From Alkalihalobacillus sp. CinArs1 (GTDB taxonomy: Bacteria; Bacillota; Bacilli; Bacillales; Guptibacillaceae): DNA of 64,000 nucleotides. Under the pieces are notes generated by a model. It saw only the letters and a list, made by a program, of their open reading frames with translations. It was not told the DNA's origin and searched no databases. The stretch spans positions 1,054,001-1,118,000 of the forward strand of contig NZ_CANDOB010000002.1 in the NCBI RefSeq assembly GCF_947387515.1. The letters run 5' to 3'. Positions 2,448-48,786 of the stretch are shown piece after piece; position 1 is the stretch's first letter, and every line of letters begins with the position of its first letter. Both the position numbers and the translations under genes were made by a program.

Positions 2448-3548
<1,101 letters not shown>

Positions 3549-11327: not shown

Positions 11328-11352
11328 AAACTTACTTTGAGGGGTGTTAGAT

Positions 11353-11466
11353 ATGGGAATTATCATATGCCAAACGTGTGAAAAAACAATCGATCATGTA
11401 ATTGAAGATAAAGTGAGTACTTTGTATAGCAGATGTCCAGAATGCAATAAGAAAGACCGCAAATAA
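11353..11466 (+). CDS. sr1P: SR1P, GapA-binding peptide
   Basis: 37-residue peptide beginning MGIIICQTCEKTI, with two cysteine pairs (CQTC and CPEC) that look like a tiny zinc-ribbon. This is the pattern of SR1P, the peptide encoded by SR1 in Bacillaceae, which binds glyceraldehyde-3-phosphate dehydrogenase GapA and promotes its association with RNase J1. A clear ribosome binding site, GAGGGGTG (11338-11345), precedes the ATG by seven bases. It fills the middle of the SR1 transcript, and the terminator starts two bases after its stop codon. Confidence 0.85.
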   Translation: MGIIICQTCEKTIDHVIEDKVSTLYSRCPECNKKDRK

Positions 11467-46374: not shown

Positions 46375-46407
46375 AAAGCAGAAACCTTTTATGGTTTCTG
46401 CTTTTTT
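46374..46407 (+). terminator. Terminator after the MFS gene
   Basis: AAAAGCAGAAACC / GGTTTCTGCTTTT with a six-base loop and T run. Confidence 0.92.
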
Positions 46408-46456
46408 AATAACTACATTCACTTTTTAAAGTGGGGATTTCCGCTCCAGGATGCTC

Positions 46457-46530
46457 GCTTTCCGCGGGGCGGGCGGCCGAGACCGGGGTGTGGTTTTCAC
46501 CTCGGGCTTGGACGTTCGTCCGCGGAAAGC
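46457..46530. repeat. GC-rich imperfect palindromic repeat element
   Basis: GCTTTCCGCGG (46457-46467) and CCGCGGAAAGC (46520-46530) are perfect 11-bp outer arms around a GC-rich core with inner complementarity (GGGGTG/CACCTC). Its composition contrasts sharply with the AT-rich flanks. I recognise it as a palindromic element common in intergenic regions of many Bacillaceae; a degenerate right arm recurs near 16955. No ORF inside. Confidence 0.75.
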
Positions 46531-46595
46531 ATGCGATCGTCATAGACTACTGTATCGGGAGCACCGAATAATAAAATAGGTTCCTCGACATGCTG

Positions 46596-46627
46596 AGCAG
46601 AAACCTCTTCAGGTTTCTGCTTTTTTA
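46596..46627. terminator. Second terminator with the same stem sequence
   Basis: AGCAGAAACCT / AGGTTTCTGCT with a CTTC loop. The core GCAGAAACC repeats that of the terminator at 46374-46407, so the GC-rich element lies between duplicated terminators. Serves the minus-strand gene ending at 46625. Confidence 0.85.
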
Positions 46628-47011
46628 CTGCATAGGAGGAATGAGATTGTTCATGCGAAGAATTCCGATAATGTGATTATAGTAGATCTCCACTTCGTTA
46701 AACTCATCCGATGGCTTCACCTCAAGAGGGACGATCGGGAGTGAGAGTTCTTCGCTAAGTTCTTCAAACATCTTAAGGCGTTGAACAGAGGGCTCTTTGG
46801 CAGGTATGCCTTCACGACATATATAAAGAGGCTGTAGATTTCCTTCTCCTGCAGACTTTAATACGACGACGGGAGAGACGACCTTTCGCTCATGTTTCGT
46901 TGTATGTAGTAACAAAAGACGGTGAACTCTGTGGGAATTTGTTCTTGCAAGTTCAACTAACTCATAAATATCAGAATAACCTTCTCCAAGTTCTATGAAA
47001 CGTTGTATCAT
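46625..47011 (-). CDS. Conserved protein (DUF7147-like)
   Basis: 128 residues: MIQRFIELGEGYSDIYELVELARTN at the start, RVHRLLLLHT, LQPLYICREGIP, and YYNHIIGILRMNNLIPPMQ at the end. I recall relatives near ylbG and rsmD in other Bacillaceae, annotated only as a DUF. ATG at 47011, nine bases after AAAGGAG. The frame is open far upstream (to 47227) but lacks a start signal there and overlaps another gene. Confidence 0.75.
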   Translation of the reverse strand: MIQRFIELGEGYSDIYELVELARTNSHRVHRLLLLHTTKHERKVVSPVVVLKSAGEGNLQPLYICREGIPAKEPSVQRLKMFEELSEELSLPIVPLEVKPSDEFNEVEIYYNHIIGILRMNNLIPPMQ

Positions 47012-47122
47012 GTTTGTTGCTCCTTTCCATGTCTTAGAAATCCTCTCATAATGTAGCATGAAATTTAAATGATGGAAAGGATGAAGCGTTTCCATTAAAA
47101 TGAGAAGAAAGGAGGTTTTTCC

Positions 47123-47443
47123 ATGGGATCGATTCTGCTCTTTGCGACTGTAATAGGGATACTGCTCTATTTGTACTGGAAAGGTAGAAACGCTAAAGAA
47201 GAAACCATCGATAAAAACCTCATCCAAGGAATCATCATTGCTGATATTTTAGCAGCTCTGGTCATTCATGGTGTGATAACGAGTGCAGAAGCTGACTTTT
47301 TATCAAACTCGTCGTTATCAGAAGTAGAAGAGTATGTGATTCAAAATACGAATTTAACAAAAGATGAGTTTGGTGAATGGATTCATCACGATTGGGATGG
47401 GATCCAAGCGATCGATTTACCGCTAGATTTAGATCCGGGGTGA
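47123..47443 (+). CDS. Membrane-anchored small protein, function unknown
   Basis: 106 residues. One N-terminal membrane helix (ILLFATVIGILLYLYW), then a charged cytoplasmic-type domain that is mostly helical and ends in acidic residues. I do not recognise the family. AAAGGAGG precedes the ATG by seven bases. Its stop codon meets the 3' end of the minus-strand small RNA. Confidence 0.6.
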   Translation: MGSILLFATVIGILLYLYWKGRNAKEETIDKNLIQGIIIADILAALVIHGVITSAEADFLSNSSLSEVEEYVIQNTNLTKDEFGEWIHHDWDGIQAIDLPLDLDPG

Positions 47444-47445
47444 CA

Positions 47446-47592
47446 CAAAAATACCCGCAGGAAATCATTCCTGCGGGTGCCTTAAACCTAATGGTTAAGG
47501 CAAATGGGAGAGGAGAAACCGGAGGAAGAACTTATGGGGAAACGTAAGTCTTCTCCGCGGTTGACAGCATCATTAACCTGGTAAGATGCTGC
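47446..47592 (-). ncRNA. csfG: Structured small RNA, CsfG / ylbH-leader region homologue
   Basis: A minus-strand transcript of about 146 nt is predicted from a forespore-type promoter (47599-47627) to a strong terminator (47453-47478). Its order: a stem CAGCATC/GATGCTG; a hairpin whose loop reads CGTTTCCCCA; a C-rich single-stranded stretch with TTCTCCTCTCCC; a hairpin GCCTTAACC/GGTTTAAGGC; the terminator. Exposed C-rich segments suit pairing with ribosome binding sites. The intergenic region before ylbH (rsmD) is where I recall both the Rfam ylbH leader and the sporulation RNA CsfG in B. subtilis. Identity by position, structure and promoter, not by alignment. Confidence 0.6.
47453..47478 (-). 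terminator. Terminator of the minus-strand small RNA
   Basis: ACCCGCAGGAA / TTCCTGCGGGT, 11-bp stem with a four-base loop. The T-rich tail (ATTTTTG) exists only on the minus strand; on the plus strand the hairpin is followed by GCC, so it does not suit the upstream plus-strand gene. Confidence 0.8.
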
Positions 47593-47598
47593 TATAGT

Positions 47599-47627
47599 TA
47601 GTATCGCCATCCACTATGCGTTTATAC
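47599..47627 (-). promoter_or_regulatory. Forespore-type (sigma-F/sigma-G) promoter
   Basis: On the minus strand GTATA (47627-47623), 14 bp, GGCGATACTA (47608-47599). The -10 matches the sigma-F pattern GGnnAnAnTA at every fixed position, and GTATA is a standard -35; the spacer is one base shorter than I recall as usual. Confidence 0.55.
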
Positions 47628-47698
47628 ATTAATTTTAGCTTTCACTTTTTTTATGGTAGGATAGGTAGGAATATGGAAACGATAAGGTTGTGAACGAG

Positions 47699-48786
<1,088 letters not shown>

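Follow-up and report, generated by a model that had tools for sequence, protein, structure and literature searches.

Minus-strand reading of the rsmD-adjacent element of Alkalihalobacillus sp. CinArs1 as the forespore-type small RNA CsfG

The short interval upstream of rsmD in Alkalihalobacillus sp. CinArs1 carries a structured element that can be claimed for either strand: Rfam files it as a leader of rsmD on the plus strand, and the minus strand reads as a small RNA gene with a promoter and a terminator of its own. Which strand holds the RNA, how far does that RNA extend among spore formers, and which part of it is conserved? We examined the element within a window of 64,000 nucleotides (the whole stretch of DNA analysed, to which all coordinates refer) and across related loci. 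A search with the Rfam model RF00516 matched the plus strand of the window at 87.9 bits (E = 4.2e-17, gathering threshold 50) over model positions 1-122 of 122, confirming the proposal of a sequence-only reading that this is the locus of the Rfam ylbH leader. The family is typed in Rfam release 15 as a cis-regulatory leader, on the strand opposite to CsfG.

In the available text of PMC3574147, northern blotting of the ylbH orphan element in B. subtilis shows no leader and a strong reverse-strand signal, which is CsfG; CsfG is tabulated there as a 136-nt peak between ylbG and ylbH, and its conserved stretches, rich in C and U, sit in loops or link helices. CsfG is under sigma-F/sigma-G control and is strongly expressed in sporulation, and no target or role is reported for it in the available text of PMC8216469 (2021) and PMC9147052 (2022). 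A B. licheniformis RNA-seq list also includes CsfG (PMC3871023). Labels conflict in this literature: S547 denotes CsfG in one of PMC8216469 and PMC9147052, and the homolog of Bvs196 (hinT-ecsA) in the other. Bvs196 of Bacillus velezensis is, like CsfG, a forespore sRNA under sigma-F and sigma-G, but it lies between hinT and ecsA, measures 294 nt and is a different gene (PMC9147052).

The features of the locus are as follows.

47623-47627, minus strand: -35 element GTATA, part of a forespore-type promoter (sequence)
14 nt, minus strand: spacer between GTATA and the -10 element (sequence)
47599-47608, minus strand: -10 element GGCGATACTA (sequence)
47446-47592, minus strand: CsfG small RNA, about 147 nt, with ends predicted from the -10 element (5') and the T-run (3')
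About 47564-47592, minus strand: hairpin 1, variable in sequence (fold)
47525-47553, minus strand: core hairpin with the stem GAAGACUUA / UAAG(U)UCUUC and a loop rich in C, UUUCCCC (fold and helix counts)
47539-47536, minus strand: CCCC in the core hairpin (sequence)
47522-47506, minus strand: C-rich linker CCGGTTTCTCCTCTCCC, with the most conserved segment CCGGUUUCUCCUCUCCC (17 nt; sequence and comparison)
About 47502-47479, minus strand: short hairpin 5' of the terminator (fold)
47447-47478, minus strand: intrinsic terminator, 11-pair stem at 47478-47453 and T-run at 47451-47447 (terminator scan)
47443-47560, plus strand: Rfam RF00516 'ylbH leader' match, 87.9 bits, antisense to the csfG transcript
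47123-47443, plus strand: gene for a small membrane-type protein, convergent with csfG (ORF)
47690-48277, plus strand: rsmD, starting at GTG 47690 or ATG 47699, divergent from csfG (ORF; name carried over from the earlier reading)
47654-47662, plus strand: putative extended -10 of rsmD, TGGTAGGAT, beyond the csfG promoter (inferred from sequence)

Every element that the sequence-only reading had named, from GTATA-N14-GGCGATACTA through the hairpins and C-rich segments to the terminator with its T-tract, was found in its place with exact coordinates. By sequence, this promoter matches the sigma-F/sigma-G consensus. A terminator scan of 46900-47900 returned two sites, the minus-strand terminator and a plus-strand site at 47790-47807, outside the element. 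Over the same interval a sigma-70 scan gave four promoter-like sites on the plus strand and none on the minus strand, sporulation sigma factors being outside its scope. Folding energy cannot pick the strand, because the two strands are alike in stability (z = -5.62 for the minus strand and -5.63 for the plus strand, with equal stability in 0 of 200 shuffles for each). In the predicted fold the CCCC loop and the CUCUCCC linker are unpaired, and CUUCCUCC is partly paired.

Like CsfG of B. subtilis, the window copy lies beside rsmD (ylbH) on the reverse strand, has a CU-rich loop and CU-rich inter-helix segments, a forespore-type promoter and its own terminator, and belongs to a spore-forming host. 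Nothing in the features compared separates the two apart from the placement of ylbG, which unlike in B. subtilis is not the direct neighbour in the window: an MFS-type gene, a minus-strand ORF and the small membrane-type gene intervene. The Rfam ylbH leader is the same DNA as the window csfG and differs in strand and in its filing as a cis leader. We consider it very likely that the window element is a CsfG ortholog and an independent small RNA gene of the minus strand; it is an ordinary ortholog, and the strand correction has already been published.

The comparison of strands began from 189 anchor occurrences (loci L002-L188 and the window, among the matches listed), of which 12 were dropped for short flanks, leaving 177, and 174 rows once 3 duplicates were removed. 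These 174 rows are not all from Bacilli, as the named scan also contributed non-Bacilli MAGs and one isolate (Fuchsiella), and because the rows are kin by descent, p-values for strand are indicative only. Among the matches listed, 153/177 loci have a broad forespore-type promoter on the sRNA strand, 40-145 nt upstream of the anchor. The other strand of this interval has one in 16/177, two upstream control intervals in 8 and 2, and shuffles in 12.4 on average; 24 of the 177 loci have no match on the sRNA strand. The strict GTATA form, again among the matches listed, occurs in 116/177 loci, against 0/177 on the other strand, 0/177 in each upstream interval and 2.45 in shuffles. On the 174 unique rows the broad form gives 150 versus 16, 8 and 2 (among the matches listed). 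The promoter GTATA-N14-GGCGATACTA therefore appears, from its conservation in 153/177 of the matches listed, to be of the forespore type that the sequence-only reading had assigned; its loss in relatives, which that reading had named as grounds for giving the claim up, was looked for and is not what these loci show.

The other counts lean the same way. A terminator-like site lies 3' of the anchor in 162/174 rows on the sRNA strand versus 54/174 on the other strand, and hairpin 1 is stabler on the sRNA strand in 101/137 and on the other strand in 35/137 (both among the matches listed). A strand-neutral search found the core helix in 172 of 251 rows among the matches listed, a set that holds six rows twice because 6 of the 78 non-Bacilli loci described below are also in the 174-row set. 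Within those 172, still among the matches listed, G.U pairing on the sRNA strand is seen in 40 rows, and A.C, equivalent to G.U on the opposite strand, in 6. The 3' hairpin leans likewise, with 105 rows versus 37 (again among the matches listed). As judged by promoter conservation, terminators and the G.U versus A.C counts, the minus strand is the csfG strand, and the promoter, terminator and G.U comparison uphold the earlier claim of an independent minus-strand gene with its own terminator.

How the element stands towards rsmD was followed by tblastn with the window rsmD. Among the matches listed, RsmD was found in 167/173 loci, and tblastn over the locus DNA found none in 6/173; csfG is divergent from rsmD in 161/173 and runs towards it in 6 (L010, L011, L012, L068, L072 and L146, the last at 2.3 kb from rsmD). 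All six inverted loci keep the promoter match, and one further inverted csfG, L318, occurs among the 78 non-Bacilli loci. On the rsmD side, in the 90 nt beyond the csfG promoter, TGNTANNNT is present in 113/150 rows versus 25/150 on the opposite strand (among the matches listed), and in the window the inferred rsmD -10 sits 27 nt from the csfG -35. From these sequences we infer that rsmD has a separate promoter outside csfG. The element would then not lie within the 5' part of an rsmD transcript on the same strand, as a cis leader should, and the earlier claim that it is no cis leader of rsmD is sustained by the inferred rsmD -10 outside the element and by the inversion of csfG in six loci. 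The seven inverted loci, L318 included, offer a natural test of the independence of csfG from rsmD.

Three other accounts of the locus can be weighed on this evidence. Rfam takes the RF00516 element for a cis-acting plus-strand leader of rsmD; its typing, the plus strand being folded as stably as the minus strand, and the position beside rsmD in 167/173 loci among the matches listed all suit that account, but the forespore promoter is on the minus strand, the putative rsmD promoter lies beyond the element, csfG points at rsmD in six loci and in L318, the G.U asymmetry favours the sRNA strand, and the available text of PMC3574147 reports no plus-strand RNA by northern blot in B. subtilis. We regard a plus-strand leader as highly improbable, and the public entry RF00516 continues to place an rsmD leader on the opposite strand. 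The adjacency of csfG and rsmD might itself be functional, with forespore polymerase at csfG masking the rsmD promoter or competing with it, and the role of the RNA a separate matter; the firing of csfG would then turn rsmD off in the forespore. Such competition between promoters would fit the divergent arrangement with RsmD in 161/173 (among the matches listed) and 70/78 loci and the 27 nt between the inferred rsmD -10 and the csfG -35 of the window, yet we think it unlikely: six loci are inverted, RsmD was not found in six others nor in 7/78, and the linkage may be inherited because the rsmD-coaD order is itself old. Finally, a small protein could be encoded on the plus strand (GGAGG-N8-ATG GGG AAA), since a sequence resembling a ribosome-binding site with an ATG is present in 167/174 rows among the matches listed. 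This candidate was rejected, as its frames run from 3 to 129 codons with no preferred end and no conserved peptide, and northern blotting in B. subtilis gives no plus-strand signal (PMC3574147, available text); its probability is close to nil. The divergent pairing of csfG with rsmD is long-lived.

We compared csfG (by the Rfam model) and SpoIVA (by TIGR02836) in a sample of 398 genomes of the class Bacilli, setting the two groups side by side by eye. RF00516 matched 229/398 genomes and SpoIVA 268/398; a csfG match was present in 228/268 genomes with SpoIVA versus 1/130 without it (G322; Fisher p = 3.6e-67). The host of the window (G000) is SpoIVA-positive (E = 1.9e-262) and an endospore former by gene content. 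Forty genomes of this sample have SpoIVA and no csfG match, 26 of them in a single family (f19, which we guess to be Planococcaceae) that seems to be without csfG. At least six of the remaining exceptions (G242, G330, G206, G304, G384 and G176) carry csfG-like elements with an altered core that the model search missed, the model failing on some Bacilli copies that keep only part of the core. A near match in f19, GAGAGGAGAAAACGA (5 of 11 genomes searched, L243-L247), was rejected as csfG: it has neither promoter nor core and precedes an ORF, presumably rpmE.

To follow the element beyond Bacilli, an exact CCGGUUUCUCCUCUCCC was sought in a phylum sample of 398 genomes, 382 of them outside Bacilli, with the reversed pattern as control. 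It occurs in 151/398 genomes and 139/382 outside Bacilli, and the control in 0. SpoIVA is present in 336/398 genomes of this sample and in 148 of the 151 with the motif (Fisher p = 1.5e-10); the three with motif and no SpoIVA are G521, G678 and G699, of 80, 61 and 90% completeness. The exact motif is absent from 188/336 SpoIVA genomes of the phylum sample, so that the RNA, widespread as it is, does not extend to every spore former. A one-mismatch search of 80 of these 188 gave hits in 12 genomes, csfG-like only in family f86, where CCAGTTTCTCCTCTCCC occurs in all 4 genomes sampled (5 loci, with an RsmD match in 2/5 and a promoter-pattern match in 4/5); the remaining hits were rejected as csfG, having no promoter and no core.

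We took 78 loci from among the 139 non-Bacilli genomes that carry the motif, 18 as returned and 60 picked to spread over families. Flanks were long enough in 76 of them; of these, 68 carry the broad promoter, versus 4 on the other strand and 3 and 2 upstream, and 41 carry the strict form, versus 0, 0 and 0. RsmD adjoins 71/78 loci, divergently in 70, and is absent in 7/78. The isolate Fuchsiella alkaliacetigena (L157) is a named non-Bacilli example. Two proteobacterial names also occur in the named scan, an Acetobacteraceae MAG (L151) and a Desulfovibrio MAG (L152), both presumably misbinned contigs. No statement on CsfG outside Bacilli was found in the available parts of the literature, and Marchais et al. 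2011, said to be the description of CsfG, with the title phrase 'highly conserved in endospore formers', may have described such spread before.

The most conserved part of the RNA is the 17-nt segment. Its identity in the scan rows is partly due to selection, because the named scan required the 17-mer; the 70 loci picked with the Rfam model escape this selection, and CCGGUUUCUCCUCUCCC is exact in all of them and in the window, with a core that is near-identical across these 71 rows. The core helix reaches at least 9 of 10 pairs in 147/174 rows (among the matches listed) versus 8 after shuffling of the upstream part, and in only 29/77 non-Bacilli rows. Bacilli rows have the helix GAAGACUUA/UAAG(Y)UCUUC with a bulged pyrimidine, and many other rows have GAAGAGCUUA/UGAGCUCUUC, with the bulge position paired. 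Because L311, L314 and L315 have no 5' stem partner and keep CCCCAUAAGCUCUUCCUCCGGUUUCUCCUCUCCC, and L238 and L240 retain only UUCCGGUUUCUCCUCUCCC, the invariant part is a linear stretch and not the stem, which is dispensable in some lineages; the question of what CsfG does is narrowed by this comparison to a segment of 17-34 nt. Some genomes hold two csfG-like elements: L391 and L401 (G508), L341 and L342 (G451, both at contig ends and possibly one place counted twice), and L130, with copies at 3413 and 6260, the first without a promoter match.

Across these lineages the 17-nt segment, promoter, terminator and divergent rsmD recur; the first hairpin, the stem of the core and the sequence of the terminator all vary. 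We hold it an even call that CsfG is an ancestral forespore RNA of endospore-forming Bacillota, working through an unpaired stretch of about 17-34 nt that has a single fixed partner in the forespore, and lost from some spore-forming lineages; RF00516 would on this account describe the wrong strand and the Bacilli form only.

How might such an RNA work? Forespore RNA polymerase with sigma-F or sigma-G would transcribe csfG from the minus strand, and the RNA would end at its own terminator. It could then act in trans through its single-stranded C-rich segments, the UUUCCCC loop, CUUCCUCC and the UUUCUCCUCUCCC linker, which would pair with G-rich sequence such as the ribosome-binding sites of forespore mRNAs and so block translation, in the manner of RoxS and FsrA. 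C-rich regions are common to CsfG, RoxS and FsrA (PMC8216469, PMC4409812), and those C-rich sRNAs whose function is known work through pairing (PMC4409812). RoxS/RsaE and FsrA resemble CsfG in having unpaired C-rich regions able to pair with ribosome-binding sites (PMC4409812, PMC8216469), but differ from it in sequence, promoter and locus and have known targets; the CsfG segment is also far more invariant than theirs, as judged from the CsfG alignment. By this analogy the pairing of C-rich segments with G-rich mRNA is plausible, falling slightly short of an even call.

We compared the three C-rich segments (CRR1, CRR2 and CRR3) against 51 start regions of the window and 60 shuffles of the same composition; anti-SD pairing had served to choose the start codons, a choice that favours a positive result. 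CRR2, at -9.27, beats all 60 shuffles (best, -9.18) and is the only one of the three to do so. CRR1 (-8.05 versus -7.53 in shuffles, s.d. 0.28) and CRR3 (-11.64 versus -11.27, s.d. 0.30) do not beat all 60. Start-region pairing is thus mostly explained by base composition, and the earlier description of the RNA as probably anti-Shine-Dalgarno is weakly supported, by one segment of the three.

Because the 17-nt segment is near-invariant across the phylum, one fixed partner suggests itself in addition to, or instead of, such pairing: a protein or a single RNA that CsfG would titrate or guide in the forespore. The 17-mer is letter-identical from Bacilli to other classes and is kept where the partner of the core stem is missing (as in L311, L314 and L315), and CsfG co-immunoprecipitates with Hfq (PMC3574147). 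CRR3, the most invariant segment, gains nothing over its base composition in pairing with start regions, and for that reason we allow a fixed ligand tentative credence, although we still lean against it; set against the idea are the unconvincing candidates 16S and 23S rRNA and the fact that C-rich sRNAs with known function pair with RNA (PMC4409812). The two proposals are compatible and not exclusive. A search of 4 genomes for a second site of the 17-mer, allowing as many as 3 mismatches, found no near-perfect conserved one: besides csfG there were one 2-mismatch hit and otherwise 3-mismatch hits. Hits about equal the reversed control in G190 and G080 and exceed it in G000 (12 vs 1) and G159 (24 vs 6). 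The sole 2-mismatch site is in G159 (L206). The 17-mer may have a dedicated mRNA target.

Ribosomal RNA was considered as a partner as well. CsfG could be antisense to 16S rRNA (CUUCCUCCGGUUU against AAACCGGAGGAAG), blocking assembly or function of the 30S subunit: a 13-nt exact complement, spotted first and tested afterwards, is present in the host's own 16S, a length that 3/1000 shuffles reach, and it is kept in 6 of the 11 genomes in which both sequences were read. It is, however, broken in the other 5, by change in csfG with 16S unchanged in G073, G153 and G137, by change in 16S with csfG unchanged in G732, and by change in both in G719. The 13-mer is present in 130/174 rows among the matches listed, and the duplex energy is ordinary, with 25/200 shuffles as low. 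The 16S of G691 and G439 also is without the 13-nt complement site, and that of G458 falls outside the comparison, having no match to the search string. These points argue against 16S rRNA as a shared partner, and we rate the antisense proposal very improbable. In 23S the best complement is 11 nt, and the 17-mer alone finds at most 8 nt in 16S and 23S.

Other features of the window were noted in passing. On the plus strand, 11303-11505 matches the Rfam SR1 sRNA at 59.9 bits (gathering threshold 45) and contains a 40-aa ORF at 11344-11466 (MLDMGIIICQTCEKTIDHV...), convergent with a 494-aa decarboxylase-like ORF of the minus strand; we take the 40-aa ORF to resemble the SR1P peptide. A G+C-rich stretch at 46433-46580 (plus strand), single-copy in the window, has 11-nt inverted arms GCTTTCCGCGG/CCGCGGAAAGC 52 nt apart and has the look of an intergenic repeat or mobile element. 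Beyond it, at 46596-46621 on the plus strand, the inverted repeat AGCAGAAACCT/AGGTTTCTGCT is followed by TTTTTT and is a likely terminator; it repeats the hairpin sequence of about 46380-46408, and the two flank the G+C-rich element.
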